The notes below the pieces were generated by a model, which worked only from the letters and a program-made list of their open reading frames with translations, did no database searches and was not told the origin of the DNA. Source: Aestuariispira ectoiniformans (lineage in GTDB: Bacteria; Pseudomonadota; Alphaproteobacteria; UBA8366; Aestuariispiraceae). Taken from it: a DNA stretch of 64,000 nucleotides. Below are positions 17,636-33,743 of this stretch, one piece after another. The stretch's first letter is position 1. Each line of letters opens with the position of its first letter. The stretch spans positions 2,460,501-2,524,500 of the forward strand of contig NZ_CP062788.1 of NCBI RefSeq assembly GCF_025136295.1. Direction: 5' to 3'. The translations under genes and the position numbers were made by a program.

Positions 17636-19945
17636 ATGGGCGGGGTCCAGCATTTGATGAGCGCAAAAGCATGGCGGATCGGTATCGGCGCTGCCGTCGT
17701 GGCGATGATGGCGGGATGTGCGCCGGTAGAGACCCCGACGCTGAACGATCAATATGTGAGTGACCTGGCGTCCGCAGGCTCCTTCACCGGGGTCGAGGGC
17801 CGCATTATCACGGATAATGACGCTGCCTTTCAGGCCAAGCTGGACCTGATCCGACGGGCAGAGAAATCCATCGACGCCATGTATTACATCTATGCCGATG
17901 ACCTTTCGTCATCCGTTATGAGCATGGCATTGCTGGATGCAGCAAAACGTGGCGTAAAGGTAAGGCTTCTGGTCGATTATCTGACGAATTACAGCCGCTT
18001 GGACCATTTTTCGATGATGGAACGTGAGGCCCGCAAATCCGGTGGGGACCTGGAAGTGCGGTTCTTTAACCGCCCGACACGGAATATTATCAAGAATGCG
18101 GCTTATCTGACGTCCGGCTGTGTAGGTACCTCCCTTGATGCGCCGGACCGGGCCTGTTCACAGGCCAAGACGGCCAACATTGATGCTTTTTTTGCTGGTG
18201 AGAAAATCGACGGCGTTGAGGCCAAATCCCTTAACATTTCCAATCGCAACACGGGGTTCTCCGGTATTTTCCTATCCGGTCTTTACGCCAAGGAACCGGA
18301 TGTCATGGCCTATGCGGTAACAGCCGGGCAGGGGATCGACCCTGACGCTGCCATGTCAGGCGGGCCGCAATTGAGCGACGAGGACAAAGACAAGCTTGCA
18401 GAACTTGGAAAGCTTTACTGGCATGCCAAAACCGGGTCGGGATTTTCCGGCCTTGTGGCACGGGTGAAACTGGGGCTCGCCTTTACCCTTTACGGTGACA
18501 CGATTGATCCCGTGTTTAACCAGTTTACCGCGGTGATACCGTCTGAAACACCAGATGCGGATGCCGCAGCCCGCGATTGGGAATATTTCACTCAGTTCCT
18601 GCATCATAAATTCTTATTGGTGGATGGCCGATGGGTGCAACTTGGCGGTCGCAATGTGGAGGATTCCTACCACATGCATCCGACCGAGCTGACCCATAAA
18701 TATGTGTTTATGGACACTGATCTGAACGCGGACCTGGGACAGCAGACGCAACTTGGTGACACGTTCGAACGGATCTGGGGTTTCCGGACAATGGTGGCGG
18801 GGCTGGACGAAATCCGCCAGCACGCGCCGAACGAGATCGTGGCCAACCTTCATGCTTGGAATGCGGCGCAGGAAACCTGCAAGGGGCAGGGAGATCAGGA
18901 GATGGTCGCGACTTGCACCGGTGTCCTATTTGCAGGCAAGGCGGAAAGCCTGGACCAGCGGGAGGATGCCGCCTATGCCCGTATGCTGGACAACGCGGCG
19001 ACCTATAAGAACAGATATGAACCGGCAACGGCCGGTGCCTGGCCGTCGATTGCGCTGCCCGTCGGGGCCGAGCTGACCTATCTGGAAAACCTTACCTTGA
19101 AACGGGATGCCAGAACAGGAGCGTTGCAACGCCAGTTCGACACGACAAACGGGCGTGAGTTGCAGGAGAACAAACATATCCATGCACTTTGGCTTTCCGC
19201 TATGAAAACCACTTGTCAGCAGTCCTATCTGGATGGGCGGACCCGGCGCGTCGTCCTGCATAATGCCTATTTCTTCCCGTCGTCCAATTTCATAAGTGCA
19301 CTGGCCAAGATGATTGACGGTACGTGGAATTGCGGGAATGTCGATATTATGGTTTTGACCAATTCGCTGGACACGACGGACCTCAGTATAGTCAATCTCT
19401 TTGCCCGGCATGGGACGAAGGCATTTTCGGAATACTACCGGGATCACCGCTCACCGGACCGTGGCGCGCGCGTCCGCTATCTGGAATATGTGCGTGATCC
19501 GAACGGGCCGTGGTTGTCCCTGCATTCCAAGGTGATGGTCATTGGCGATTATCTTTTTGTGGGCTCCGCCAATACCGACGTGCGCAGTTATGTGATGGAT
19601 ACGAATAACGGTTTCCTGATCCGTAATGCGCCAGAATTGGTGAATGCCTATCTTGAATTTGTAGATGGTCTTGCAGGAGACCCGGATCGTGTTCGCTACA
19701 GAACCGCCTATTTCGCGGCAACTCCCCGCGAACAGATTCTGGAGGAAGACATTGTGTCCCTTCGTCAGATGCTCAAGAAATACCGGGCAGATCGCTGGAT
19801 CAATGAAGAGCAGGTCAAGAAGCTGGAGCAACAGGCGGTCCAGTCTCTGAACGAAACCTATGCCCTGACGAAGAAGCTGCTGACCCGCGCCCCCGGCGCA
19901 AAGGAAGCCGCAGAGGCCTTCAATCGCAAGTTCAAACCGATCTAG
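17636..19945 (+). CDS. Phospholipase-D-superfamily lipoprotein, cardiolipin-synthase-C-like
   Basis: A large (about 769 residues) lipoprotein with a signal ending MMAGC. Two PLD half-sites are seen. The first, HHKFLLVDGRW followed by LGGRNVEDSY (from about residue 323), is the canonical HxKx4D with the GGRN variant known in ClsC/YmdC proteins. The second, LHSKVMVIGDYLFVGSAN (from about residue 629), has Gly where Asp is expected and Asp one place later. An early IDAMYYIYADDLS is also typical. ClsC makes cardiolipin from phosphatidylglycerol and phosphatidylethanolamine, but the activity here is unproven. The start at 17636 is favoured by AAGGGG upstream; 17621 is possible. It overlaps the convergent kinase gene by 4 nt. 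Confidence 0.75.
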   Translation: MGGVQHLMSAKAWRIGIGAAVVAMMAGCAPVETPTLNDQYVSDLASAGSFTGVEGRIITDNDAAFQAKLDLIRRAEKSIDAMYYIYADDLSSSVMSMALLDAAKRGVKVRLLVDYLTNYSRLDHFSMMEREARKSGGDLEVRFFNRPTRNIIKNAAYLTSGCVGTSLDAPDRACSQAKTANIDAFFAGEKIDGVEAKSLNISNRNTGFSGIFLSGLYAKEPDVMAYAVTAGQGIDPDAAMSGGPQLSDEDKDKLAELGKLYWHAKTGSGFSGLVARVKLGLAFTLYGDTIDPVFNQFTAVIPSETPDADAAARDWEYFTQFLHHKFLLVDGRWVQLGGRNVEDSYHMHPTELTHKYVFMDTDLNADLGQQTQLGDTFERIWGFRTMVAGLDEIRQHAPNEIVANLHAWNAAQETCKGQGDQEMVATCTGVLFAGKAESLDQREDAAYARMLDNAATYKNRYEPATAGAWPSIALPVGAELTYLENLTLKRDARTGALQRQFDTTNGRELQENKHIHALWLSAMKTTCQQSYLDGRTRRVVLHNAYFFPSSNFISALAKMIDGTWNCGNVDIMVLTNSLDTTDLSIVNLFARHGTKAFSEYYRDHRSPDRGARVRYLEYVRDPNGPWLSLHSKVMVIGDYLFVGSANTDVRSYVMDTNNGFLIRNAPELVNAYLEFVDGLAGDPDRVRYRTAYFAATPREQILEEDIVSLRQMLKKYRADRWINEEQVKKLEQQAVQSLNETYALTKKLLTRAPGAKEAAEAFNRKFKPI

Positions 19946-22707
19946 GCCTGGAGACTTTTCGGAGATATATCGGCAGCGGCTTCGGCCGCTGCCTTTTTCA
20001 TGACGACGACAAAGCAGGCCCCTGCATCATTGTCGTGAACCAGATACAAATCACCGCCCAGGTTTTGCATGATCTGCTTGGAGATCGCGAGGCCCAGGCC
20101 TGCCCCGGCTTGCTCCCGTGAGCGCGCGTTCCAGCCTCTTGAAAATTTGGAGAAGAGGGCGGAGCGGTCTTCGGGTGGAATACCCGGGCCATTGTCGCGC
20201 ACCCGAATGGCTGCGCCGTCCCGTGCGTCTGTTTCAACCAGTTCTATCCAGACCTTGGGCGCATCGCTGTTGTTGTATTTGATTGCATTGGAAATGAGGT
20301 TGATGAAAACCTGTTTCAGGCGGTCGGCATCGGCGATGACGGGCAATGACCCGTCGCCCAGATTATTGATCAGTTCAACATTCCGGTCACTGGCCAGGCC
20401 CCGCATCGTCTCTATTGCATCGGCGGTGATGGCAAGGGCATCAACATCCTGAAAGTCCCAATTCGCCTGACCGTCTTCCATCTGGCTAAGGTCCAGGATT
20501 TCATCAAGAAGGCGGGTCAGGCGGACGCTTTCGTCCTGGATAATGCCTAAAAACCTATTTGATTGCTGCTGGTCCAGCCCCTGTTGCGATACCAGGATTT
20601 CGGAGAAAGAGCGGATGGAGGTCATCGGCGTGCGAAGTTCATGACTGACGCGGCTCAGGAAGTCATCTTTCATCTTGTCCAGCCGGGTGAGCTGTTCGTT
20701 CGCCTGACGCAGTTGTTCCGCCGTTTCCTCCAACTCATGGGACTTGCGTTCCAGCTCGTGGCTGTAGCGGATGGCCTCCTGCGTTTCATCCAGAATGTCG
20801 ATGACGGCTTCGAGGCTGATGCTTTCGCCTTTGGCCACGCGGGATACCAGTGTTCTGGCGGATGCCGCACCGACGCCGCTGGCCAGTTGTCGTTCGATAT
20901 AGGCGATGAAGCGCGGGTCCGGCGTTGGCAATTGGTCTGCCCGCCCTTGTTTGCGGGCATAGGACTGGAAGATGCGTGCAGCCCGGTCCCGGCCCAGAAT
21001 CCGTTGCGTCAGTTGGAATAGATCTTCTGACGTTGCCGAGCGCTGCAAGCCGCTTTCAACTCCCTGGCGGCGACTGTTGAAGGCGTCGACGAAGAGGATG
21101 CTTTGCAGCCTTTCCAGAGGCAACTGGCTGGTAGACAGGGAAACGAGGACATAGCAGAGAACATTGATGGAGAAACTCCAGAACAGGCCGTGGACCAGCG
21201 GGTCCCATTCAGACAACCCGAACAGCGCGTCCGGTTTCAGAAGTTCAATGGAAAACGGGCCGGTTTGCACAAGGCCGATAAACGCCCAGCCGGAACTGGC
21301 AAAGCTCGGCACCAGCAGGGTATAGATCCAAAGCAGGAAACCGGCGATCAGGCCCGTGGTCGCGCCAGCCTTGGTGCCGCCTTCCCAATAGATGCCACCG
21401 ATCAAGGCAGGCAGGAATTGTGCCACGCCTGCAAAAGAAATCAGACCGATTGAGGCAAGCGGGTTCGTCGTGCCGGTCAGGTGGTAGTAACTGAAACCGA
21501 GGGTCAGAATGGCGACAATACTCAAGCGCCGAACAATGATCAGCAGGCGCGAGAAGTCGCCGCTGCCCGGGCCGGTGAAGAAGGGCAGGCGGAGAAGCAG
21601 CGGCGTCACCAGGTGGTTCGAGATCATGATTGAAAGCGCGATACTGGCGACAATGACCATGCTGGTCGCGGCAGACAGCCCGCCAATGAAGGCGAGGAGG
21701 GCCAGGCCACCCTGGCCTGCGGAAAGTGGTACTTTCAGAACATAGAGGTCCGGATTGTCGGTTTCCGGCAGGTGGACCATTCCGCTGATGGCGATCGGAA
21801 TGACGAAAAGACTAACCAGCAACATATAAAGCGGGAAAAGCCAGGCGGCGGTTGCCAGATGTCTTTCTTCGGAATTCTCAACCACGGCAACCTGGAACTG
21901 GCGGGGCAGACAGATGATTGCCGCCGCCGACAGGAAGGTCGTTGCCAGCCAGCGGGGCTCAAAGCCTTCGCTGAAGGCGTAGAGGTTTTTGACGCCCTGA
22001 TGCCATTTGGCGGTATCAAACAGGTCGCGCACGCCGTCATTCAGGCCATAGACGGCAAAGACGGCAATTGCGCCCAGGCTCAACAACTTGACGATAGACT
22101 CGAAGGCAATGGCGGCGACAACGCCTGGATGGCGCTCATCCGCGCCGACATTGCGCGTGCCGAACAAGATCACGAATGTGGCCATGCAGACTGCCACCCA
22201 AAAGCCGGTGTCGGCAAAAATGCCACGGTCACCGACAGTGTGCGGCACCCAGGTCTGTGCCGCGCCAAGGGCATCGAAACTTGCCGCGACGGCCTTTAGC
22301 TGAAGGGCAATATAGGGCGTAACCCCGATAAGGGCGATCACCGTGACCAGGGCCGAAAGCAGGGCGCTTTTGCCATAGCGCGCAGAAATGAAATCTGCAA
22401 TCGAGGTGATTTTCTGGGCCTTGCTGATCCGTACCAGTTTGCGCAGCAGAAACCACCAGCCCATCAACACGAATGTCGGGCCGAGATAGATGGTCAGGTA
22501 TTCCAGGCCACTGCGGGCAGCGGAGCCAACCGCGCCATAGAAGGTCCAGGACGTGCAATAAACGGCCAGTGACAGGGTATAGACGATCGGTGAAGAGACG
22601 AAAGATGCCGCGCCACGCTCCGCGCGCCGATCGCTGACAAATGCCAACAGGAACAAACCGCCCAGATAAAGGCTGGCTACAAGGACGATGAGACCGGTGC
22701 TGAGCAT
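19942..22707 (-). CDS. Sensor histidine kinase with SLC5 symporter and STAC domains (CbrA/CrbS-like)
   Basis: A 921-residue membrane kinase. Residues 1 to about 520 are a sodium/solute symporter-like (SLC5) module with some 13 helices (SPIVYTLSLAVYCTSWTFYGAVG near the start). A STAC domain follows (TSEDLFQLTQRILGRDRAARIF), then a coiled coil, an H-box SHELRTPM with His689, an N-box ISNAIKYNN, and VRDNGPGIP and GAGLGLAISKQ. There is no PAS domain and no C-terminal receiver. CbrA and CrbS relatives control use of amino acids or acetate and may sense transport through the SLC5 part. It is the last gene of a four-gene operon with a regulator, a receiver and a 2-TM protein. Ligand unknown. Confidence 0.9.
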   Translation of the reverse strand: MLSTGLIVLVASLYLGGLFLLAFVSDRRAERGAASFVSSPIVYTLSLAVYCTSWTFYGAVGSAARSGLEYLTIYLGPTFVLMGWWFLLRKLVRISKAQKITSIADFISARYGKSALLSALVTVIALIGVTPYIALQLKAVAASFDALGAAQTWVPHTVGDRGIFADTGFWVAVCMATFVILFGTRNVGADERHPGVVAAIAFESIVKLLSLGAIAVFAVYGLNDGVRDLFDTAKWHQGVKNLYAFSEGFEPRWLATTFLSAAAIICLPRQFQVAVVENSEERHLATAAWLFPLYMLLVSLFVIPIAISGMVHLPETDNPDLYVLKVPLSAGQGGLALLAFIGGLSAATSMVIVASIALSIMISNHLVTPLLLRLPFFTGPGSGDFSRLLIIVRRLSIVAILTLGFSYYHLTGTTNPLASIGLISFAGVAQFLPALIGGIYWEGGTKAGATTGLIAGFLLWIYTLLVPSFASSGWAFIGLVQTGPFSIELLKPDALFGLSEWDPLVHGLFWSFSINVLCYVLVSLSTSQLPLERLQSILFVDAFNSRRQGVESGLQRSATSEDLFQLTQRILGRDRAARIFQSYARKQGRADQLPTPDPRFIAYIERQLASGVGAASARTLVSRVAKGESISLEAVIDILDETQEAIRYSHELERKSHELEETAEQLRQANEQLTRLDKMKDDFLSRVSHELRTPMTSIRSFSEILVSQQGLDQQQSNRFLGIIQDESVRLTRLLDEILDLSQMEDGQANWDFQDVDALAITADAIETMRGLASDRNVELINNLGDGSLPVIADADRLKQVFINLISNAIKYNNSDAPKVWIELVETDARDGAAIRVRDNGPGIPPEDRSALFSKFSRGWNARSREQAGAGLGLAISKQIMQNLGGDLYLVHDNDAGACFVVVMKKAAAEAAADISPKSLQA

Positions 22708-22710
22708 CGC

Positions 22711-22980
22711 CTAGGTCTCATCTTTTTTATAGGGAAAGCTGTTGTTTGCCTTTGGCTCTTTCGAACGTTGGGCAGGGCCTTTCCCTACAAGTCTGCGGGC
22801 GACAATCGCCGTCAGGACAATGCCGATGAACCACAGCATGAAGATATAGATGAACAGCACCGGTATGCCTGCCAGAAACGCATTCTGGTCAAAAATGCGG
22901 ATATAGGGGGGCAGGAAGATCAGAATCCCGATCAAGGGTAAAACAAGAGCGGCATCACGTGTGCGGCGTTCCGGCGACAT
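22711..22980 (-). CDS. Small two-TM membrane protein, kinase-associated
   Basis: An 89-residue protein with two predicted helices (ALVLPLIGILIFLPPYIRIF and a second around IPVLFIYIFMLWFIGIVLTA) and a basic polar tail. It lies 3 nt upstream of the SLC5 kinase gene and 20 nt after the receiver gene, so it is in the operon. It resembles DUF3311-like two-helix proteins often found beside SLC5-type transporters, as far as I can recall. It could be a subunit of the kinase's symporter module. Function is unknown. Confidence 0.7.
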   Translation of the reverse strand: MSPERRTRDAALVLPLIGILIFLPPYIRIFDQNAFLAGIPVLFIYIFMLWFIGIVLTAIVARRLVGKGPAQRSKEPKANNSFPYKKDET

Positions 22981-23000: not shown

Positions 23001-23405
23001 CTATTCGTGACCGCCGGCAACATGTGTGACGTTGCTGTTCTGGGCCAGCAGGCCGGAGATACGGTCGACCAAATCCTGGTTGGAGAAGGGCTTGGTCACA
23101 AATTCATTCGCACCGAGGTCCAGCATCAGCTTGCGGTCCGCTTCCTGACCTTTGGCGGTCAGGGCGAGAACCGGCAAATCCTCGAAGCCGGGCGCGTTGC
23201 GAATCTGGCGCAATATCTCGAATCCGTTTGATGTGGGCAGCATGACGTCCAACACCAACAGGTCGGGCTTTTCACGTTGAACTGTTTCCAATACCGCGGC
23301 GCCGTCATTGACCGAGACGACCCTATGCCCCTCCCGCGATAGAAGGAAGTTCAACGATTCTACGATATACGGCTCATCCTCTGCGATAAGGATAGTCGTC
23401 CCCAT
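23001..23405 (-). CDS. Receiver-only response regulator (CheY-like)
   Basis: A single receiver domain of 134 residues. The acidic pair in LIAEDEP, phosphoacceptor Asp53 in LLVLDVMLP, Thr in LALTAKG and Lys in VTKPF are all in place. No output domain follows; only about 10 residues remain after the fold. The gene lies between the ScfR-type regulator (68 nt upstream) and the 2-TM/kinase pair, so it is the likely partner of the kinase. Without an output domain it must act through another protein, possibly the adjacent regulator. Confidence 0.9.
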   Translation of the reverse strand: MGTTILIAEDEPYIVESLNFLLSREGHRVVSVNDGAAVLETVQREKPDLLVLDVMLPTSNGFEILRQIRNAPGFEDLPVLALTAKGQEADRKLMLDLGANEFVTKPFSNQDLVDRISGLLAQNSNVTHVAGGHE

Positions 23406-23473: not shown

Positions 23474-25042
23474 TCATGTATTCATTTCCGAGGCGAGTTT
23501 TTCATTCATTGGCGCCAAGATAGCGGCATGAGCGCGCTGATTGCAATTTTTTCGTGGACACGATCTGCAGTTGAAGCCGACAGGCGTTGTCAATTTGCCC
23601 TGCCGATTGGCAAAACGGTCACCATATACCAGCCGGTCACGGTAAGAGATATCACAGCCGAGCATGACACTGTAAGTAACTGGGTGGGTGCCAAATGCAC
23701 CATACTGTTTTGTCAGGCGTCGGGCGATGAAAAGATACTGCTCTCCGGACGACAGGCTGGCCAGTTGGGCAATGGTCCGATCTGTGCCGAGGGCTTCGTA
23801 GATCGCCCAAAGCGGGCAGGCACCACCATAACGCGGCATGCGAAGGCCGGGGATACTGAACGGCTTTGAAATATTGCCTGCTGGGTCGGCGCGGAGAAAG
23901 GCGAATGGTACGCCCTCCGCGCCGGAGCGTCTCAAGGTTACCATCCGATGGGCAATCTGTTCAAAGCTTCCTGCGAAACGTGGTTGCAGGCGTTCGATAT
24001 CGTATCGGTCGTTCTCCGCCGCATCAAGAAAGGGCTGATAGGGGAACAACAAGGCTCCAGCAGCATAGTTGGCCAGAGCCCGGCGGGCGGCCTGACGCGA
24101 TGCGTCGCTTGTCAGGCGACTGTCCCGGACAAGGCTGTCCAAAGTGTCCGACATCTCCAGTTCCGCAAGGCGTTGTGCTTCGCGAAAGCGGATTGTGGTT
24201 TCCTTCAGGCCTTCCGCATGGATCAATGTCTTTTCATCGACCAGTGATGGTTGCCGCACGGGGTCATAGGCCCTGCGTACGGTCAGGCCGTGTTTGTGGG
24301 TCAGTCGTTCATGGATAGCGGCGCTTATGGTGGAGGGGGCATACTCCATCTCCTTGTTCAGCGCCTCCGCAGCCCACTCCAGGTCCGGGAAGTAGTTGCC
24401 GTGATGGATGATGAAATCGTCAACCTCATTGGCGGGGGACGTCGGTTTTTCCGTTTCCGAGGCGCTGCTCAACAGGTCGATCATCGTCCGTGCGCTGGAC
24501 CCCAATTGGTCACTTTGTGAAGCAATGATGCTTGAGAATCGATTTCGTTCGTCTGATGAAAGGTCGCTATATTGCTCAAGGATTTCCGCGAAAGAGCGGA
24601 TCGACGTGATCTGCGTCAGGACGGAATGGCTGAGTTCCATGAGCGCCGGGTCCTGGCTTAGCCGATCAGACAACGCCAGCGCCGTTTCCGTGACATCCTG
24701 ATAGCGCCGATGCAAAGCCAGAAACGCATTGGCCCATTCGGGCGTCTGCGCCACGAAATTAAGGGCGTTACGGTCGTCCAGGTCGTCGATTGCCATCGAC
24801 CGGGTCAGTTCGACGATATCCTGCGCCAGCCTGGCATCCTCAGTACCGCTCAACCATCCGATTTCAACATGCAGGGCTTCGGCGATCCGCTTCATGAGCT
24901 TGCCGCCGATCATGCGTTTGTCGTGTTCGATCAGGTTCAGATAGGACGGCGAAATACCAATGGCCTCGGCCAGGTCCGATTGGGTCAGGCCTTTGTCTTT
25001 CCGGCTGTTCCGTATGCGTTGTCCTATCGGGAGGCGAGCCAA
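23474..25042 (-). CDS. ScfR/RamB-type XRE regulator with an internal histidine-kinase DHp-like segment
   Basis: A 522-residue transcription factor. Residues 5-65 form an XRE helix-turn-helix (GLTQSDLAEAIGISPSYLNLIE). Residues 131-192 look like a HisKA helix pair with the SH motif at His139 (see finding). From about 260 an ImmA/IrrE-like region follows in which the HExxH site is degenerate (FREAQRLAE), then the DUF2083-type part with NYAAGALLFPYQPFLDAA, DIERLQPRFAGSFEQ and a Cys cluster CRSCPRKNC near the end. Such proteins sense short-chain acyl-CoAs and control acetate or propionate use. The start is TTG, supported by GAGGGA 7 nt upstream and an upstream in-frame stop. It heads the kinase operon and is divergent from the ABC importer genes. 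Confidence 0.85.
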   Translation of the reverse strand: MARLPIGQRIRNSRKDKGLTQSDLAEAIGISPSYLNLIEHDKRMIGGKLMKRIAEALHVEIGWLSGTEDARLAQDIVELTRSMAIDDLDDRNALNFVAQTPEWANAFLALHRRYQDVTETALALSDRLSQDPALMELSHSVLTQITSIRSFAEILEQYSDLSSDERNRFSSIIASQSDQLGSSARTMIDLLSSASETEKPTSPANEVDDFIIHHGNYFPDLEWAAEALNKEMEYAPSTISAAIHERLTHKHGLTVRRAYDPVRQPSLVDEKTLIHAEGLKETTIRFREAQRLAELEMSDTLDSLVRDSRLTSDASRQAARRALANYAAGALLFPYQPFLDAAENDRYDIERLQPRFAGSFEQIAHRMVTLRRSGAEGVPFAFLRADPAGNISKPFSIPGLRMPRYGGACPLWAIYEALGTDRTIAQLASLSSGEQYLFIARRLTKQYGAFGTHPVTYSVMLGCDISYRDRLVYGDRFANRQGKLTTPVGFNCRSCPRKNCNQRAHAAILAPMNEKLASEMNT

Positions 25043-25079: not shown

Positions 25080-25095
25080 TGTAAAGAAATTTACA
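25080..25095. promoter_or_regulatory. Inverted repeat TGTAAA-N4-TTTACA near the regulator start
   Basis: A perfect 6-bp inverted repeat with a 4-nt spacer lies 38 nt upstream of the ScfR-type regulator's TTG start. It resembles a diverged TTTGCAAA-type site and is a candidate autoregulatory operator. Confidence 0.35.
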
Positions 25096-25131
25096 CCTGC
25101 AATGCAGCATTTACAGTATTCTTCACAAACC

Positions 25132-25256: not shown

Positions 25257-26606
25257 ATGAATTTTTCTGACAAGAAGTGGACGCGTCGTGGCGTCCTGAA
25301 AACCGGTTCCGTTTTGGCCGGTGCGGCTGTTGCTGCGCCGACCATGTTTGTACGCGGTGCCTGGGCGGATATGGATTTCCGCAATAACCCGGGCAACGCA
25401 AGTTCCGTAAAGTTCGGTTTTAACGTTCCTCAAACCGGCCCCTATGCCGATGAGGGGGCAGACGAACTGAGGGCCTATAAACTGGCCGTGAAGCATCTCA
25501 ACGGTGAAGGTGACGGCGGAATGTTGCTCACCATGAACCCGCTGTCGCTGAAGGGTAATGGTGTGTTGGGCAAGAAGGTCGAATATGTGACCGGCGACAC
25601 CCAGACCAAATCCGATGCCGCCCGCGCATCCGCCAAGCGGATGATCGAAAAAGACGGGATCATCATGTTCTCCGGCGGTTCATCCTCCGGCGTGGCGATT
25701 GCGGAACAGTCCCTGGCCCAGGAAATGGGCGTTGTCTTCATGGCGGGACTGACCCATTCCAACGACACGACGGGTAAGGACAAACGCCGTTACGGTTTCC
25801 GTCATTTCTTCAACGCCTATATGTCCGGCGCCGCTCTGGGGCCGGTGTTGAAGGAAGAAATGGGCACGGATCGTCGCGCCTATCATCTGACGGCGGACTA
25901 TACCTGGGGCTGGACCCAGGAAGAGTCGATCAAAAACACCACCGAGGCCCTGGGCTGGGAAACCGTGAACACGGTTCGCACGCCGCTGGGTGCCGGTGAC
26001 TTCTCCCAGTATATTACGCCGGTTCTGAACTCCGGTGCCGATGTGCTGATCCTGAACCACTACGGCAAGGATATGATCAACTCCCTGACCCAGGCGGTTC
26101 AGTTCGGCCTGCGTGACAAGATGGTCAACGGCAAGAAATTTGAAATTGTCGTGCCGCTCTTCTCACGTCTGATGGCGCAGGGTGCCGGTGAAAACATCAA
26201 GGGTATCCTTGGGACGACGAACTGGAACTGGTCCCTGACCGACGCGGGCTCCCAGGCCTTCGTGAAATCCTTTGGTCAGGAATACGGTTTCCCGCCGTCG
26301 CAGGCTGCTCATACCTGCTATGTCCAGACGCTGCTTTATGCAAACGCCTGTGAAATGGCCGGGACCTTCTATCCGCCGGAAGTGATCAAGGCGCTGGAAG
26401 GCTTCAAATTCGACGGCATGGGCAATGGCCCGACGGAATATCGTGCCGCTGATCACCAGTGCTTCAAGAACGTTCTGGTCGTGCGCGGGAATGAAAACCC
26501 GACCAGCCAGTTCGACCTGTTGAAGGTGGTGAAGGAAGTGCCGCGTGAACAGGTGGAATACGATCCCGCCATCTTTGGCGGCGAGCTTGGCCCGTATCAA
26601 GTTTAA
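25257..26606 (+). CDS. ABC transporter substrate-binding protein, branched-chain/amide type, Tat-exported
   Basis: A 449-residue periplasmic binding protein of the LivJ/UrtA fold. The signal carries a twin Arg (WTRRGVLKTG) and ends near RGAWAD, so export by Tat is likely. VKFGFNVPQTGPYADEGADELRAY opens the mature domain, and the GGSSSGVAIAEQSLAQEMG stretch follows. It is longer than LivJ (about 370). A GGGGAGG site precedes the ATG. It is the first gene of a five-gene importer, divergent from the regulator-kinase operon. The ligand is unknown. The neighbouring acyl-CoA-type regulator makes a short-chain organic acid one possibility. Confidence 0.85.
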   Translation: MNFSDKKWTRRGVLKTGSVLAGAAVAAPTMFVRGAWADMDFRNNPGNASSVKFGFNVPQTGPYADEGADELRAYKLAVKHLNGEGDGGMLLTMNPLSLKGNGVLGKKVEYVTGDTQTKSDAARASAKRMIEKDGIIMFSGGSSSGVAIAEQSLAQEMGVVFMAGLTHSNDTTGKDKRRYGFRHFFNAYMSGAALGPVLKEEMGTDRRAYHLTADYTWGWTQEESIKNTTEALGWETVNTVRTPLGAGDFSQYITPVLNSGADVLILNHYGKDMINSLTQAVQFGLRDKMVNGKKFEIVVPLFSRLMAQGAGENIKGILGTTNWNWSLTDAGSQAFVKSFGQEYGFPPSQAAHTCYVQTLLYANACEMAGTFYPPEVIKALEGFKFDGMGNGPTEYRAADHQCFKNVLVVRGNENPTSQFDLLKVVKEVPREQVEYDPAIFGGELGPYQV

Positions 26607-26622
26607 GTCTCCCTAAACTTGG

Positions 26623-26651
26623 GCCAGCCGTCGCCTTTGGCGGCGGCTGGC
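26623..26651 (+). other. Intercistronic hairpin after the binding-protein gene
   Basis: A 13-bp stem (one G-T pair) with a 3-nt loop lies 16 nt after the stop, without a T-run. It is likely an mRNA 3'-end stabiliser or partial terminator that raises binding-protein levels over the permeases. Confidence 0.65.
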
Positions 26652-26691
26652 GCGGCCAATTTAGTATTCCCCGTGAAGCAGTAATGGTTGT

Positions 26692-27714
26692 ATGGCTATG
26701 GATGCGATAATTCTCCAAATACTGAACGGGTTGGACAAGGGCGGTGCCTATGCATTGATCGCCCTGGGTCTGACTCTCGTCTTCGGGACCCTGGGGGTCG
26801 TGAATTTTGCCCATGGGGCGATCTTCATGATGGGGGCCTTTTGTGCGGTTACTCTCGAAAAAATTCTTACGATTTCCAAACAGGTGAAAGACCCGACCAT
26901 CACCTATTTCGATGCGTTCAAGGAAACGCCTTACCTGGAAATCTGGTTTGGCGACTTTGGCCGGACTATCATCGACTATTCCGTTCCTTTATCGATCATC
27001 CTTGCCATACCGGTCATGCTGCTGATCGGTCTTGCCATGGAACGCGGACTGATCCGCTTTTTCTACAAGCGTCCTCATGCGGAACAAATCCTTGTGACCT
27101 TCGGTCTGGCGATCGTTCTGCAGGAAATTATCAAGGCAATTTTTGGCGCCAATCCGATCCCGACGGCGGCCCCCGACATCGTTTCGGGCAGCGCGGCTAT
27201 CGGCACTTTCCTGGGGCTTGGCGACGCAGTGGTCTATCCCTGGTGGCGTCTGATCTACTTCGGTTTCGCCGGCATCGTCATTTTCAGCGTCTTCGCATTT
27301 TTGCGGCTGACAACTTACGGCATGGTCGTTCGCGCTGGTATGCAGGACCGCGAGACAGTCGGTCTGCTCGGCATCAACATCGAACGCCGGTTCACTGTTG
27401 TCTTTGGTATTGCGGCCGTGGTCGCCGGGTTGGCGGGGGTTATGTATACCCCGATCCTGCCGCCTGATTACCACATGGGTATGGATTTCCTGGTGCTCTC
27501 CTTCGTCGTTGTTGTTGTTGGCGGCATGGGGTCTCTGGAAGGGGCGGTTCTGGCCGGTTTCCTGCTGGGAATTCTTCAGTCCTTCGCTTCGATGAACGAA
27601 GTGAAGCAAATCCTGCCGGGCATCGATCAGATCATCATCTATGCCGTTGCCGTTGCCATCCTCTTGCTGCGTCCGCGCGGGCTTCTTGGCCGCCGCGGCC
27701 TGATGGAGAGTTGA
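26692..27714 (+). CDS. Branched-chain-type ABC transporter permease (LivH-like)
   Basis: A 340-residue inner-membrane permease. The N-terminal [32 protein letters not shown] and the later [11 protein letters not shown] and [13 protein letters not shown] are typical of LivH/UrtB. It is about 40-50 residues longer than LivH because of a polar stretch after the second helix (around [18 protein letters not shown]). It should pair with the next gene's product to form the pore. Confidence 0.88.
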
Positions 27715-27715
27715 T

Positions 27716-28855
27716 ATGACCGCCGCATTCGCCAAAAAAGACTGGGTCACCATCGCGATTTTTGCTGCGGTGATCCTCCTTATGCCAATCTGGCTTTCGC
27801 CGCTTGGTGCATCCTACCCCGACCTGTTGCAGAAATTTGCAATCTACGGGCTGTTTGCCATCGGCTTTAACATTCTCTTCGGTCTGACCGGCTATCTGTC
27901 CTTCGGTCATGCTGCCTTTCTCGGCGCGGGTTCCTATGCTGCGGTGTGGTCATTCAAGCTTTTCACCATGAATGTGATCCCGGCTGTCCTGTTCGGTACT
28001 TTGATCGGTGGTTTGTTTGCCGCATTGATCGGCTTTATCTGCCTGCGGCGGTCGGGGATCTACTTCTCGATCCTGACGCTGGCCTTCGCCCAGATGAGCT
28101 ACAACCTTGCCTATTCCGTGCTGACGCCGATTACCAATGGCGAGACCGGTCTGCAGCTCAGCCAGACTGACCCGCGCATTTTCGATGCTGCGCTGGACCA
28201 TAGTGGCCTTCCGATGACGAGCCTGCTCGGGGTGGAAATGACCGGTTATCCGGGATTCTACTTCTGTGCCGCCCTGTTGATCCTTGGTTTCTTCATCTCG
28301 CTGCGCATCTTCCGTTCTCCCTTTGGCATGAAGCTGCAGGCGTTGAAGTCCAATCAGGTTCGCATGAGTTACACCGGTTTCAACACGCGACCCTATATGC
28401 TGACGGCCTTCATTATTTCAGGGATGTATGCCGGTCTGGCAGGTTCCCTGCTGGCCGTGACCGACCCTTTGGCAGGCGCAGAACGCATGCAGTGGACCGC
28501 ATCCGGTGAGGTTGTGCTGATGACAATTCTCGGCGGTGCCGGAACGTTGATCGGGCCGCTGCTGGGGGCAGGGATCATTAAATACTTCGAGAATATTTTC
28601 TCTGCCTATAACGATGCCACCCTGCATGACATTTTCAGCTTCCTGCCTGATTTCATCGCGGACCCGATTGTCGCCGTCCTTGGGCTTTTTGTCGGTGACG
28701 GCTGGCATCTGACCCTGGGCGTTCTGTTCATGCTGATCGTGATCTTCCTGCCGGGTGGCGTGATGGAAGGTATCCGTCGACTGACGGCCTTCGTCCGCAG
28801 CAAGACGCGGGGAGAATCCTCTAACGGCGCAACCGCGACCCAGCCATCGGAATAA
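27716..28855 (+). CDS. Branched-chain-type ABC transporter permease (LivM-like)
   Basis: A 379-residue permease with about ten predicted helices. [53 protein letters not shown] and [13 protein letters not shown] are LivM hallmarks. Its ATG is 1 nt after the stop of the preceding permease gene, so the two are translationally coupled. Confidence 0.88.
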
Positions 28856-28866
28856 GGAAGAACGTC

Positions 28867-29628
28867 ATGGTTAAGACGATACTTAATGTCCAGGACGTGG
28901 ATAAGTATTTCGCTGGGTTGCACGCGCTCAGCAATATCAATCTGCAAATTGAAGAAGGGCAGACCCATGCGATCATCGGGCCGAACGGGGCGGGCAAGTC
29001 GACCTTGCTCAACGTCTGCGTTGGCCGTTTGAAGCCGAACAGCGGAACCGTCACCTTTGATGGCGAGATCCTGACCGGCAAGGCCCCGCATGAAATCAAC
29101 CAGTGCGGTGTGGCGCGGGTTTTTCAGACGCCTGAAATTTTTCCGGAACTGAGCCTGCTTCAGAATGTCATGATCCCGGCTTTTGCCAAACGGGAGGGGT
29201 CGTTCAAGTTCAACGCCTTTCGGGCTCTCGCCGGAGAGAAGGAAATTCAGGAAGAAGCGGTTGATATCCTGGAAGACCTTGGCCTGCACGGACAGAAGGA
29301 CAGGGTTGCGGGAAGTCTGTCGCGCGGCGATAAAAGGCGTCTGGAACTGGCCATGTGCCTCGTACAGCATCCCCGCCTTCTGCTGTTGGATGAACCGACG
29401 GCGGGCATGTCCCGGCATGATACCAACAAGACAATCGAAATCCTGAAGCGGATCAAGGAACGCGGTATGACCAAGGTCATCATCGAGCATGACATGCATG
29501 TGGTCTTCAGCCTGGCCGACCGCGTTTCGGTTCTGGCGCAAGGGGCGATTATCGCCCAGGGCGCGCCTGATGATGTCCGTGGTGATCCGAAGGTCCAGGA
29601 AGCCTATTTGGGAGGAGCAGCCGCATGA
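28867..29628 (+). CDS. Branched-chain-type ABC transporter ATP-binding protein (LivG-like)
   Basis: ABC ATPase of 253 residues with Walker A GPNGAGKST, Q-loop VARVFQTPEIFP, Walker B LLLLDEPTAGM and H-loop VIIEHDMHVV. The signature reads LSRGDKR instead of LSGGQ, as is common in LivG/UrtD. An insertion around KREGSFKFNAFRAL is usual for LivG. It overlaps the following ATPase start by 4 nt (ATGA). Confidence 0.88.
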   Translation: MVKTILNVQDVDKYFAGLHALSNINLQIEEGQTHAIIGPNGAGKSTLLNVCVGRLKPNSGTVTFDGEILTGKAPHEINQCGVARVFQTPEIFPELSLLQNVMIPAFAKREGSFKFNAFRALAGEKEIQEEAVDILEDLGLHGQKDRVAGSLSRGDKRRLELAMCLVQHPRLLLLDEPTAGMSRHDTNKTIEILKRIKERGMTKVIIEHDMHVVFSLADRVSVLAQGAIIAQGAPDDVRGDPKVQEAYLGGAAA

Positions 29629-30383
29629 CACAAGCCGCTCAGCAAATGAATGAACAAGCAAAGGGGCGCAATAAAGCCCCGGCCTTTTTCTCCTGCTATG
29701 ATCTGCATGCCTATTATGGTGAAAGCTACATTGTGCAGGGTGTCAGTTTTGATGTCCGGGAAGGCGAAATCGTAGCCCTGTTGGGACGGAACGGGGCGGG
29801 GAAGACCTCGACCCTCCGCACCATTGCAAGGGCAACCGACCCTCAGTTACGGCGTGGTGAAATCTGGCTGGATCATCAAGCCGTTCATCAGATGCGCGAT
29901 TATCAGGCCGCCCAGGCAGGTATTGCGCTGGTACCTGAGGATCGGCGCATCATTCCGGGCCTGACGGTGGAAGAAAATCTTCAACTTTCCCAGATCGCAG
30001 AGCCGATCGGGTGGTCCATCGAACGAATCTATGACCATTTCCCGCGGCTTGCCGAACGTCGGAAACAGGAAGCGGTCACCATGTCCGGCGGGGAACAGCA
30101 GATGCTGGCCGTTGCACGTGCGTTGGCCCGTGACATCAAGCTGTTGCTGCTGGATGAGCCCTATGAGGGACTGGCTCCGGTCATCGTCCGGGAGATTGAA
30201 GGGATTCTGGAAAGTGTGAAGGACCTCGGTATCACGACAATTATCGTGGAGCAGAATGCAATTGCAGCCCTGAATCTTTCCGATCGGGCAATCATTCTGG
30301 ATATGGGGGAAGTCGCCTTCGAGGGAAGCGCCCAGGAGGTTCTGGATAATGCGGATATCCGCCAGGAATATCTGGCTGTGTAG
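29625..30383 (+). CDS. Branched-chain-type ABC transporter ATP-binding protein (LivF-like)
   Basis: ABC ATPase of 252 residues with Walker A GRNGAGKTS, the LivF motif ALVPEDRRIIPGLTVEENL, signature MSGGEQQM, Walker B LLLLDEPYEGL and H-loop IIVEQNAIAAL. Gln-Asn replaces the His-Asp of the H-loop, as in most LivF proteins. An extra 25-residue N-terminal leader (from MTQAAQQMNEQ) precedes the domain, so an inner start is possible. Last gene of the importer. Confidence 0.88.
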   Translation: MTQAAQQMNEQAKGRNKAPAFFSCYDLHAYYGESYIVQGVSFDVREGEIVALLGRNGAGKTSTLRTIARATDPQLRRGEIWLDHQAVHQMRDYQAAQAGIALVPEDRRIIPGLTVEENLQLSQIAEPIGWSIERIYDHFPRLAERRKQEAVTMSGGEQQMLAVARALARDIKLLLLDEPYEGLAPVIVREIEGILESVKDLGITTIIVEQNAIAALNLSDRAIILDMGEVAFEGSAQEVLDNADIRQEYLAV

Positions 30384-30598
30384 ATACCGGTTTGGGGGGT
30401 AGACCGTACTCGGTCTCATGGGGGAAGGCGGTCGCGTTTATCGCGGCCGTTTTCCGTTGGCGGCAATGCTGTTGTGGTGTCGGGCAAAACCGATGCGCAG
30501 ACTTGCTGTTGTGTCACCCGGCTTGCGGGGATAACGGTGGCGCTTTACTTTGCGGCAGGCAAGGTTCTTTCTGACAGGTGTTTCCGGAGGTTGATCGG

Positions 30599-32359
30599 GT
30601 GTTGAGGTTTCGGCGGCTCGGCCGTTTCCCTTTCTGGATAATTGGTTTCTGTGTGACGGTCGTGGCCGTGTGGGGGGCAACCACCTGGACGACGCGTATC
30701 ACGGTCGACCAGTTGCGTGAGACGGCATCGGGCCGGTTGACCCTTTATGAAAGTACACTTTGGGCCGCGATCAAGCGTTACCACTATCTGCCCTATGTCC
30801 TCAGCCGCAATGTGGAGGTTCACAATGTGCTGGCTGGCAGCGCCCCGGCCGATGATCTGAACCTGTATCTGGAGGCATTGAACGAGCGCTCCGGTGCGGC
30901 GGCCCTTTATCTGATGGACAAGAACGGGGATACGCTGGCCGCCAGTAACTGGCGAACACCGGAAAGCTTTGTCGGGAGCAACTATGCTTTCCGGCCTTAC
31001 TATAAAAATGCGCTTGAAGGGCGCGGCGGGTTTTTCTTTGGCATTGGCGTCACAACCGGATTGCCAGGACTGTTCTTGTCTCATCCGGTTGTCATTGATG
31101 ATGAAGTCGCGGGCGTTGCTGTCGTGAAGGTCGACCTGGAGCCGTTGCAGCGTAACTGGCAGCAGGGCGGGGAGGTCGTCTTTGCCAGCGATATGGAAGA
31201 TGTGATCATCCTTTCCAGCCGCTCTGATTGGCGGTACCAGACGCTCAGTCCTCTGATACTGCCGACCATCAAGCGGATCAGTCTCGAGCGGCGTTACCCC
31301 GGCGTGAACCTGCAGCCACTTTCTATCCGGCGCCGGGGAAGCGACGGGGAAGAATTCTTTGAAATCGGACAGGAAGAATATCTGGTCGAAAAAAGGCATG
31401 TGCGCGGCACGGACTGGTCCCTGTATTTCCTGTCTCCCACGACCTTGCTCGCCGAACGCAGAAGCACTGCGGTGATCATTGTCGGAATCAGTGTTGGCCT
31501 AGTGTTGTTGGGCTCGTTATTTGCCAGGGAGCGGCGGCTGAAGCTGTCGTCACAGCGTGAAGCCGCCGAGGCGGAACGGTTTCGACAGTTGAACCGGCGT
31601 CTGGAAGTGGAAATAGAAGAGCGTCGACGGGCGGAAAGCGTCCTTCGCGACACCCAGGATGAATTGGTTCAATCCGGAAAGCTGGCGGCCCTTGGTCAGA
31701 TGTCGGCGGCAATCGCCCATGAACTTAATCAGCCGATTTCCGCCATCCGGACATTCTCGGCAAGCGCCAGGGTCATGCTGGGCCGTGGGGTTGTTGATCC
31801 GGTAAATGAGACGCTGGACCAGATATCCAAAATGACGGAGCGCATGGGCGTGATCACGGGGCAGCTCAAGACGTTCTCCCGAAAGTCCCAGGGGCGTCTT
31901 GAAGATATTGATGTGCTGGACTGCCTGAAGAACGCGCTGGTCCTCGTTGAGCCACAGTTACGCATGGATAAATGCGCACTTGAAACGTCACTACCGGACA
32001 AACCGGTCTTCATTCGTGGTGATGCGGTTCGTCTGGAGCAGGTCATGGTTAATCTGATCAGGAATGCCCTGGATGCCATGAAGGCACAGCCGTCCCCTTG
32101 GATTTGCTGCGAGGTGTTCACCGAGGAAAACTGGGCCGTGATCCAGATATCCGACTGCGGTGACGGTATTGATGAGGCCATTGCCGGGCAACTTTTCGAT
32201 CCGTTCTTTACGACCAAGGAACCCGGCAAAGGCGTTGGCCTGGGGCTGTCTGTCTCCTATGGTATCGTCCAGGACCTCAAAGGCATGATAAAGGCGAAAA
32301 ACCGTGTCGGTGGTGGGGCTGTTTTCGAAGTGTGGCTTCCGCTTGAATCCAAAGAGTAG
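30599..32359 (+). CDS. dctB: C4-dicarboxylate sensor histidine kinase DctB
   Basis: A membrane kinase of 586 residues. A first helix (FPFWIIGFCVTVVAVWGATTW) is followed by a periplasmic double-PAS-like sensor with NYAFRPYYKNALEGRGGFFFGIG, typical of DctB. A second helix, a coiled coil, the H-box AAIAHELNQP with His374, and the ATPase motifs ISDCGDGID and GVGLGLSVSYGIV follow. The GTG at 30599 is preferred over GTG at 30578 because GGAGG sits 8 nt before it. It senses succinate, malate or fumarate and phosphorylates DctD, encoded 7 nt downstream. Confidence 0.93.
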   Translation: MLRFRRLGRFPFWIIGFCVTVVAVWGATTWTTRITVDQLRETASGRLTLYESTLWAAIKRYHYLPYVLSRNVEVHNVLAGSAPADDLNLYLEALNERSGAAALYLMDKNGDTLAASNWRTPESFVGSNYAFRPYYKNALEGRGGFFFGIGVTTGLPGLFLSHPVVIDDEVAGVAVVKVDLEPLQRNWQQGGEVVFASDMEDVIILSSRSDWRYQTLSPLILPTIKRISLERRYPGVNLQPLSIRRRGSDGEEFFEIGQEEYLVEKRHVRGTDWSLYFLSPTTLLAERRSTAVIIVGISVGLVLLGSLFARERRLKLSSQREAAEAERFRQLNRRLEVEIEERRRAESVLRDTQDELVQSGKLAALGQMSAAIAHELNQPISAIRTFSASARVMLGRGVVDPVNETLDQISKMTERMGVITGQLKTFSRKSQGRLEDIDVLDCLKNALVLVEPQLRMDKCALETSLPDKPVFIRGDAVRLEQVMVNLIRNALDAMKAQPSPWICCEVFTEENWAVIQISDCGDGIDEAIAGQLFDPFFTTKEPGKGVGLGLSVSYGIVQDLKGMIKAKNRVGGGAVFEVWLPLESKE

Positions 32360-32366
32360 TGTCGTA

Positions 32367-33743
32367 ATGGGTGCAGAAACGCAGACAATCAAGAATTTGT
32401 TCCTGATAGATGATGAGGAGGCCATGCGGGTTGCAACCCGGCAGTGGCTGGAATTATCGGGTTGGGTTGTGGTCGACTTTGCCGCGGCGGGAGAGGCTGT
32501 TGCGGCGGTGGCACCCGATTTTGACGGGGTCATCATCAGCGACGTTAAAATGTCCGGTATGGACGGCCTGGCCTTGTTGGACGATGTGCGGCGTATCGAC
32601 AGGGAGATACCAGTCATCCTTATTACTGGGCATGGCGACGTGCCGATGGCGGTCGATGCGTTGAAGCGCGGTGCCTATGACTTTCTTGAAAAGCCCTTTG
32701 CACCGGAGCGGTTGATCGAGGTTGTCGACCGCGCCTTGGACAAGCGCCGGCTGGTTCTACAAAACCGGGACCTGAAGCGCCTGCTGGATCAGAAATCCGG
32801 CCTGGACGCCCGTTTGATTGGGCGCAGTTCCCCCATGTCTGCGATCAAGGATGAAATATTGAACCTTGCCGGGACCAGGGCGTCGGTCCTGATATCGGGA
32901 GAAACTGGTACGGGTAAGGAGGTCGTGGCTAAATGTCTGCATGATTTCGGGGGCTGGAAGGAAGGGCCCTTTGTTGCAGTCAATTGCGCAGCTATTCCTG
33001 AAAATATGGTCGAAAGCGAGCTGTTCGGGCATGAGGCCGGTGCCTTTACAGGGGCAGTCGGGCGCAGAATTGGCCATCTGGAACATGCAAACGGCGGCAC
33101 ACTTTTCCTGGATGAAATCGGAAGCATGCCGCTTGAAATGCAAAGCAAGCTCTTAAGGGCGCTGGAAAACAGGGAAATTACGCGTCTGGGGGCCAGCATG
33201 CCTGTACCGGTCGATTTCCGGCTTGTATCCGCTGCCAATGAAGACCTGAACAAGGCGGTGTCAGAAGGGCGTTTCCGCGAAGACCTCTTTTACAGGATTA
33301 ATACCGTTGAACTGACGGTCGCGCCTCTAAGAGAGCGCCGTGAGGATATTCCCCTCCTGTTTCAGGCTTTTGCATCGCAGGCAGCGGAGACTTATGACCG
33401 GGAGTTTGTACAGCCTGATGCCACGGCGACAGCCTTGCTGTTGGCGCAGGACTGGCCCGGTAATGTGCGTCAGCTCAAGAATATTGCAGAGCGTTATGTC
33501 TTGTCGTCGGCGGAACCCGCGGACAGAATGAGCCGGATTCTCAACGGGCATCCGGGTATGCGGGAAGAGGGCGGAGATGGGACGTCGCTTGCCGACCAGG
33601 TGAGGCATTTCGAGCGGCACCTGATCAAGGATGCCCTGAAGCGTTACGGTGGCAATGTGAAGGCCGTTATGGAAGAACTCGACATCCCCCGGCGGACGCT
33701 GAATGAGAAAATGGTGAAATACGGCATTGCACGTTTGGATTGA
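32367..33743 (+). CDS. dctD: C4-dicarboxylate response regulator DctD (sigma-54 activator)
   Basis: An NtrC-family regulator of 458 residues. It has a receiver with phosphoacceptor Asp59 (IISDVKMSGMDG), an AAA+ domain with GETGTGKE, the sigma-54 contact loop GAFTGA and GGTLFLDEIG, and a C-terminal Fis-type HTH (LKRYGGNVKAVMEELDIPRRTL). The ATG at 32367 gives the usual DctD N-terminus; the longer frame lies inside dctB. It should activate the sigma-54 promoter at 33865 from tandem sites just after its own stop. Confidence 0.95.
   Translation: MGAETQTIKNLFLIDDEEAMRVATRQWLELSGWVVVDFAAAGEAVAAVAPDFDGVIISDVKMSGMDGLALLDDVRRIDREIPVILITGHGDVPMAVDALKRGAYDFLEKPFAPERLIEVVDRALDKRRLVLQNRDLKRLLDQKSGLDARLIGRSSPMSAIKDEILNLAGTRASVLISGETGTGKEVVAKCLHDFGGWKEGPFVAVNCAAIPENMVESELFGHEAGAFTGAVGRRIGHLEHANGGTLFLDEIGSMPLEMQSKLLRALENREITRLGASMPVPVDFRLVSAANEDLNKAVSEGRFREDLFYRINTVELTVAPLRERREDIPLLFQAFASQAAETYDREFVQPDATATALLLAQDWPGNVRQLKNIAERYVLSSAEPADRMSRILNGHPGMREEGGDGTSLADQVRHFERHLIKDALKRYGGNVKAVMEELDIPRRTLNEKMVKYGIARLD

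Follow-up and report, generated by a model that had tools for sequence, protein, structure and literature searches.

Two-component systems normally carry their DNA-binding output on the receiver protein. In ChpT and Spo0B, a bundle resembling the dimerisation and histidine phosphotransfer (DHp) domain of histidine kinases, itself without kinase activity, accepts phosphate from a receiver; these proteins also possess a degenerate ATPase-like domain, and the phosphate goes on to a second receiver. In PhyT, from the Sphingomonas general stress response, a conserved histidine takes phosphate from a kinase-phosphorylated single-domain receiver, as described in the available text of PMC5898713, and DivL binds phosphorylated DivK through a docking module, a phospho-dependent binding without transfer, according to the accessible portion of PMC5361649. 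CrbR and RpuR, receivers of the LuxR type, themselves bear a DNA-binding output (PMC9100948, available text), and the transcription factors RamB and PrpR of the ScfR family respond to CoA esters, with no phospho-input described in the available texts on them. Here we consider a 64,000-nucleotide stretch of the Aestuariispira ectoiniformans genome (contig NZ_CP062788.1, positions 2,460,501 to 2,524,500; henceforth the window, whose own coordinates are used throughout), in which an ScfR-type transcription factor of 522 amino acids (23474..25042, minus strand, TTG start) contains, at exactly residues 131-192 (24467..24652, minus), a helical hairpin related to the DHp domain of a transporter-kinase encoded in its own operon alongside a stand-alone receiver. 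This likeness had been noticed in a reading of the bare sequence (the original prediction), which suggested that the receiver acts on the hairpin or that regulator and kinase form mixed bundles; its observation is confirmed and strengthened by the analysis below, and its interpretation is partly supported. On balance, we lean towards the view that the output-less receiver docks on the DHp hairpin of the regulator and controls it.

The DHp hairpin of an ScfR-type regulator

Residues 131-192 of the regulator align without a gap to residues 681-742 of the operon kinase (20482..20667, minus), with 24 of 62 positions identical and with the pieces SH, TSIRSF, EIL, NRF and II in register, just as had been claimed. 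His139 (codon 24626..24628, minus), the candidate phospho-acceptor and the sole histidine within residues 127-200, is present in the window regulator and, again as originally read, is followed by Ser, with Gln at the position of the conserved Pro. When residues 119-200 were compared with the 49 HisKA regions that a search at E<=1e-3 identified in this genome, the operon kinase scored 101, the next region 62 and the rest 27-62; the operon kinase ranks merely 24th of the 49 by HisKA score, yet it tops the match to the insert. Searches of 39 whole genomes returned a kinase match to the regulator in 16 at E<=1e-3, and every frame concerned, at 890-966 amino acids, is of the size of the operon kinase.

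The outcome against Pfam HisKA (PF00512), the family to which the hairpin had been assigned, is divided: the window copy attains 17.6 bits with the whole protein and 22.0 bits as a fragment, below the cut-off of 26.9, but four relatives that also carry the HTH, M78 and ScfRs domains pass it (L109 with 39.7, L085 with 38.7, L089 with 33.8 and L077 with 32.0 bits). Five insert-bearing relatives were scanned singly, these four being chosen for their strong matches; L250 shows no HisKA match at E<=0.01. Such a match at E<=0.01 is found in 23 of 77 members, the window copy included; the underlying alignment comprises the window and 76 of 78 rows (L108 and L235 left out), and L093, a broken frame, is also absent from it. 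A profile of the segment built from 77 sequences, run against the sequences of the PDB, gave HK853 as its top match (E 8e-6) and also matched DivL (E 0.002); 16 of the 17 matches at E<=0.1 are histidine kinases, the PhoR DHp domain (5ukv) or DivL, and one is a phosphohydrolase. The AlphaFold model (mean predicted local distance difference test score 89.4) shows a long helix at residues 101-129 followed by a two-helix hairpin (alpha1 132-157, alpha2 163-192) with His139 near the start of alpha1, as in DHp domains. In a Foldseek search with a 100-residue fragment, histidine kinases took ranks 1-13, all at E>=0.2 and not significant alone. The insert is a true DHp-type relative of HisKA.

The remainder of the protein bears out its label as an ScfR-type factor: an HTH_3 DNA-binding domain (residues 10-64, 24851..25015, 54.3 bits) is followed by a helical part (residues 67-129), the DHp hairpin, a Peptidase_M78 (IrrE N-terminal-like) domain (residues 271-367, 23942..24232, 44 bits) and a ScfRs C-terminal domain (residues 369-512, 23507..23938, 150 bits), all on the minus strand. 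Among the 77 members, ScfRs and HTH_3 are each found in 77 and M78 in 53 at E<=0.01, and no HATPase appears among the families matched by the regulators that were scanned. PrpR is the best match of the window regulator in both fold and sequence, and on the RamB equivalog NF038139 it obtains 351.6 bits, below the cut-off of 700, as does the DHp-less paralogue L104 with 421.3 bits. Cys409, Cys492, Cys495 and Cys500 are nearly invariant (>=90%) in 77 sequences, an indirect sign that this regulator may bind CoA esters and hold a [4Fe-4S] cluster. The DHp segment is regarded as an insert because in a DHp-less paralogue from the same genome no more than 33 bases (11 codons) separate the stretches that match residues 5-131 and 201-506 of the regulator; residues 83 and 86 of PrpR map to regulator residues 127 and 195, the first matched piece being weak (10.8 bits). 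Shorter regulators, with a broken or weak M78-like match and with HTH and DHp retained, are seen in L090, L091, most of L231-L248, L250 and L251; the Paracoccus copy L250 has no M78 match and has the DHp.

Distribution, residue conservation and origin of the insert

Across 387 genomes of the class Alphaproteobacteria, an insert-covering regulator match occurs in 53 among the matches listed (down to E ~8e-12), and the kinase family is present at E<=1e-200 in 64. All 53 regulator-bearing genomes possess the kinase family and, among the matches listed, the regulator occurs in none of the 323 kinase-less genomes, which supports the tie to the kinase drawn in the original prediction; the Fisher p of 9e-55 for this co-occurrence is overstated because related genomes are not independent. 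In a sample of 398 genomes of the phylum searched at E<=1e-10, eight genomes from outside the class gave a match, in no case extending beyond query residue 158, and of 21 new genomes with a long match 20 were taken in, G765 being left out. Altogether 88 regulators were aligned, of which 85, L093 included, have the insert and L054, L103 and L104 are without the DHp segment; L207-L209, the same genes as L099, L092 and L100, were dropped, and L249-L251 came after the counts. Three named carriers come in addition to the 85, and each has the His: Paracoccus ferrooxidans (regulator E3U26_20570; kinase gene E3U26_20555, annotated as a sodium:solute symporter), Neorhizobium sp. SOG26, and P. pantotrophus DSM 11072, which has the receiver and the kinase as well as the regulator. 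In 66 of the 83 loci that could be scored, the receiver adjoins the regulator, at most 700 bases away and in the same orientation; L108 and L119, at contig ends, were excluded, L058 was counted as linked by manual decision, its receiver sitting in a frame of 337 amino acids, and L088 has no adjacent receiver by the open reading frame rule.

Residue shares are given hereafter in the order 85 regulators / 89 kinases / 48 other HisKA regions of the Aestuariispira ectoiniformans genome, with positions counted from the phospho-His. At that position itself 75 regulators have His, five Phe, two Gln and just three the Tyr typical of DivL, and its column has the eighth-lowest entropy of 69; hence the expected conservation of His139 stands for 75 of the 85 and fails for the ten in which the position varies. 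Those ten copies are L109, L110, L102, L092, L098-L101, L072 and L073; L092 and L098-L102 have in addition lost Arg+10. Position +4 is Thr, Ser or Asn in 84 of the 85. The loss of autophosphorylation residues, originally read from a single copy, extends across the set, with Glu+1 (27/100/81%), Arg+3 (11/100/67%) and Pro+5 (0/100/92%) mostly or wholly gone, and the traits of a HisKA autokinase (Glu+1 and Pro+5, with a HATPase domain attached) are not those of the regulators. According to the available text of PMC3510030, the HisKA proteins tested there required Glu+1 for kinase activity alone and Thr/Asn+4 for phosphatase activity alone.

The share of sequences with the majority residue of the kinases averages 0.22/0.97/0.75 over +1 to +5, 0.66/0.90/0.29 over +7 to +16, 0.49/0.68/0.20 over +29 to +41 and 0.07/0.79/0.34 over +42 to +50, the alpha2 shares for the other HisKA regions being possibly too low where fragments misalign. 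The part of alpha1 that follows the His has therefore been retained much more fully than the catalytic stretch, with exceptions among the docking positions. The docking positions in question are those of PDB 4jau, in which, by the available description, five HK853 residues were changed and the receiver interface rewired; they correspond here to +8, +11, +15, +33 and +36, as set from His260 of HK853 (title of 6rh7) and the profile alignment, in which HK853 is one residue longer before its Phe291, the partner of Phe+30 of the regulators, and Glu/Asp+37 is not counted as a named docking position. Two of the five, Ser+11 (94/81/6%) and Ile+15 (100/90/15%), are common to regulators and kinases and rare in the other HisKA regions.

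All 85 regulator DHp segments fall into one group, with a support of 0.989 in a FastTree tree and 99% in a tree of 84 rows built under a better model. FastTree nests the regulators within the kinases with a support of 0.75-0.84, with 22 of the 48 other HisKA regions on the same side, while in the 84-row tree an arrangement joining regulators and transporter-kinases in one clade had a better fit than the result of the free search, and a single kinase clade is not rejected under the better model (p 0.867). Hence the regulator DHps apparently had one origin, within or beside the SLC5-type kinase lineage, a wording we keep because the nesting differs between trees of only 69 columns. The deepest regulators in the FastTree tree are L109/L110, followed by L085, L096 and L089, and L085 is still near the full HisKA motif; these deep branches and the near-complete motif of L085 are in keeping with a single capture, after which kinase features were lost. 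A recent gene conversion with the kinase as donor was also considered and is not supported, the identity to the own kinase being 0.299 as against 0.285 to the kinases of other loci.

The receiver as a candidate partner of the regulator

The stand-alone receiver (23001..23405, minus, 134 amino acids) matches Response_reg as the sole family above cut-off and has no output domain, just as the original prediction had stated. Its D10, D53 and K105 are invariant in 70 loci, and position 83 is Thr in 95% and Ser otherwise. We propose that what would be a RamB/PrpR-like, acyl-CoA- and Fe-S-dependent transcription factor acquired, apparently in a single event, a HisKA DHp hairpin of the SLC5-type kinase lineage as an insert between its DNA-binding and ligand-binding parts. 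The kinase would sense a solute via its transporter-like domain and phosphorylate the stand-alone receiver, which would then dock on the DHp bundle of the regulator in the same way as on the kinase and thereby alter the DNA binding of the regulator. About half the weight of this docking proposal goes to the receiver handing its phosphoryl group to His139; the remainder goes to phosphorylation-dependent binding, or to dephosphorylation, without a stable phospho-His. The full phosphorelay, running from the His of the kinase to the Asp of the receiver and on to His139, with phospho-state, acyl-CoA and Fe-S cluster jointly setting DNA binding, is thus a possible but rather doubtful elaboration. 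The retained His favours transfer or phosphatase action, and the ten copies without it indicate that some regulators work without the His or have lost the receiver link.

Several observations weigh against a docked receiver. At the docking positions, Ile+33 (51/90/8%) is the residue of the kinases in just half of the regulators, +8 is Ser in the kinases and mostly Ala or Ser in the regulators, in which Ala or Thr is more frequent than the kinases' Ser, and +36 varies in regulators and kinases alike; in addition, Phe+12 is kept in 22% of the regulators as against 97% of the kinases. The ten replacements of the His amount to at least three changes on the tree. Of 83 loci, 64 have a linked receiver and the His, nine the His without linkage, eight neither, and two linkage without the His; a tree-aware test of His loss upon receiver unlinking, on independent pairs, was not significant, with three trait changes, so that the association is no more than a hint. 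Mutual information with product correction, calculated for the regulator DHp, the kinase DHp and the receiver over 67 triples (effective number 36), gave no interface signal for the regulator DHp with the receiver; the control on kinase and receiver was unsuccessful as well, so that this result points neither way. When 65 linked receivers were compared with 19 from kinase loci without an adjoining regulator (ten from regulator-less genomes, nine with the regulator elsewhere), positions 16 and 19, in alpha1, were among the three of the 122 positions that differ most; of the top 16, five lie in alpha1, 84-89 or 106-110 as against 3.3 expected from the length of these regions, which is not specific to the docking face. 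The DHp of a regulator is hardly closer to its own kinase than to others, as the identities given above indicate. Finally, 11 genomes have the kinase and a nearby receiver match without a DHp-bearing regulator, and the receiver there therefore probably has another output. In the kinase loci of these regulator-less genomes (L190-L200), receiver and kinase lie about 2-2.5 kb apart in nine of 11 cases, and in L195 the receiver match lies within a long frame.

The strongest competitor to receiver docking is that the insert is a mere dimerisation bundle, a borrowed four-helix dimer module conveying no receiver signal. The invariant DHp columns Ile154, Phe169 and Leu180 would suit it, as they include positions that we take to pack in the bundle core of HisKA structures, and so would the replaced His, the lack of a receiver-regulator covariation signal and the drift at several docking positions. 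However, the phospho-His and the +4 residue of HisKA domains are exposed and have no known part in dimerisation, and it is these that are kept as His in 75 and as Thr, Ser or Asn in 84 of the 85 regulators; Ser+11, Arg+10 and Glu/Asp+37 also stay kinase-like and are rare in the other HisKA regions of the genome, and a dimer module would leave both the co-occurrence with the kinase family and the receiver linkage unexplained. We accordingly hold this explanation to be unlikely, although it deserves more credence than the two that follow. In the first of these the roles would be reversed, with the regulator dephosphorylating the receiver or acting as its sink, while acyl-CoA alone would set transcription. 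The retention of the His and of the +4 phosphatase residue alongside the frequent loss of the kinase-only Glu+1 is what the available text of PMC3510030 would lead one to expect of a phosphatase, but the receiver would be left without a known output in these operons, and the M78 match is missing in some shorter copies that keep HTH and DHp, which speaks for the DHp being an input; this reversal is improbable in our estimate. Equally improbable is that regulator and kinase form mixed bundles or that the ATPase domain of the kinase phosphorylates His139 directly in trans, the regulator being a substrate or titrant: the similarity is indeed to the kinase itself and the partners share one operon, but Glu+1, Arg+3 and Pro+5, which every one of the 89 kinases has, are mostly or wholly gone from the regulators, Glu+1 being required for kinase activity in the tested HisKA proteins (PMC3510030, available text), the kinase residues at +42 to +44 have disappeared from at least 89% of the regulators, the DHps of the regulators cluster separately, and a membrane protein would have to pair with a DNA-bound factor.

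The operon, its putative operator and known systems

Four minus-strand genes, in the order regulator, stand-alone receiver, small membrane protein and transporter-kinase, are separated by gaps of 68, 20 and 3 bases. The small membrane protein (22711..22980, minus) is weakly DUF3311-like (16.5 bits, below cut-off), its DUF4834 match of 18.0 bits also being below cut-off. The SLC5-type transporter-kinase (19942..22707, minus, 921 amino acids) has HisKA (residues 679-746) and HATPase (residues 793-905) domains, both above cut-off, and its residues 6-527 match the PDB chain 10ed_A, entitled "histidine kinase", at E 3e-76; a transporter family is absent among its Pfam matches, and no STAC profile was among the matches in general family scans, so that a STAC domain is assumed from the original prediction and the domain order.

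On the other side of the regulator, in divergent orientation, lie the five genes of a Liv/Urt-type ABC transporter (25257..30383, plus), which are the probable target: a substrate-binding protein (SBP, 25257-26606), two permeases (26692-27714 and 27716-28855) and two ATPases (28867-29628 and 29625-30383), three of the five being assigned by domain scans and the other two by position and eye. An SBP gene of this type of transporter is upstream and divergent in 47 of the 85 loci. TGTAAA or TTTACA is present in 75 of the 85 upstream regions, and pairs of TGTAAA 32 bp apart occur in 46 of them as against 0.1 expected from single-base shuffles, with one mismatch in all allowed; 32 bp is the commonest spacing, and 31, 41 and 42 also occur. 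The putative operator of the window, in the divergent promoter (25080..25127, minus), has TGTGAA (25127-25122) and TGTAAA (25095-25090) at this 32-bp spacing, with a further TGTAAA at 25115-25110 and an inverted TTTACA at 25085-25080. As a candidate for the operator sequence, TTTGCAAA was rejected, being found in just five of the 85 regions with 0.5 expected; TTTACAAA fits better, occurring on either strand in 46 of the 85 with 1.0 expected. The Paracoccus RamB has two boxes with an 18-bp spacer, studied with an 80-bp probe having 17-bp flanks (PMC10370305, available text), and from these dimensions boxes of 14 bp and a repeat of 32 bp follow by arithmetic, a length equal to the commonest spacing here. 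The TGTAAA repeats are the probable operator of this ScfR branch, as their recurrence upstream of the regulators suggests, and the regulator probably acts through paired boxes 32 bp apart on its own operon and on the divergent ABC transporter. Further along the window (30578-33743) are genes for a kinase and a sigma54-type response regulator, DctB/DctD-like as judged by eye from the list of open reading frames, followed by a gene for a TRAP-type binding protein (33849).

If the proposed docking holds, this locus would represent an unusual end to a bacterial two-component pathway, the output seemingly having been shifted to a separate metabolite-sensing factor that gained the docking domain of the kinase. 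One protein would then integrate an outside signal from the transporter-kinase, an inside signal from acyl-CoA and possibly the redox state via an Fe-S cluster; the locus would also show concretely by what means some stand-alone receivers exert their effect, and would be a natural case of domain capture rewiring a pathway while catalysis is discarded. Should the relay also be true, a one-component regulator would have become the terminal acceptor by capturing the pathway's own kind of DHp. In the open-licence literature, consulted mostly as titles and the starts of abstracts, we found no description of a DHp domain in an ScfR or other XRE-type factor, and an earlier mention is possible.

With the ScfR family (RamB, PccR and MccR/PrpR) the regulator shares the HTH_3, M78-like and ScfRs domains and the paired operator boxes, and it differs from that family by the DHp hairpin insert and by the linked receiver and transporter-kinase. 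The CrbS/CrbR, RpuS/RpuR and CbrA/CbrB systems have a transporter-kinase of the same general type, but unlike CrbR and RpuR the receiver here has no DNA-binding output. The regulator would resemble ChpT and Spo0B, the comparison offered in the original prediction, if its DHp-like bundle without kinase activity takes phosphate from the receiver; this is fair for the DHp alone, whereas their degenerate ATPase-like domain is absent from the regulator, the rest of which consists of HTH, M78-like and ScfRs domains. PhyT and DivL are closer functional precedents than Spo0B and ChpT. PhyT exemplifies an alphaproteobacterial relay whose single-domain receiver passes phosphate to a conserved His, though by the available account it is membrane-bound and passes the phosphate on to PhyR, and that account mentions no DNA-binding domain. 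DivL, itself matched by the DHp profile, is by the available account a kinase fold reused to sense a phosphorylated single-domain receiver; however, it has Tyr in place of the His and acts on CckA, whereas most of the present regulators keep the His, and here a transcription factor would take the place of the effector.

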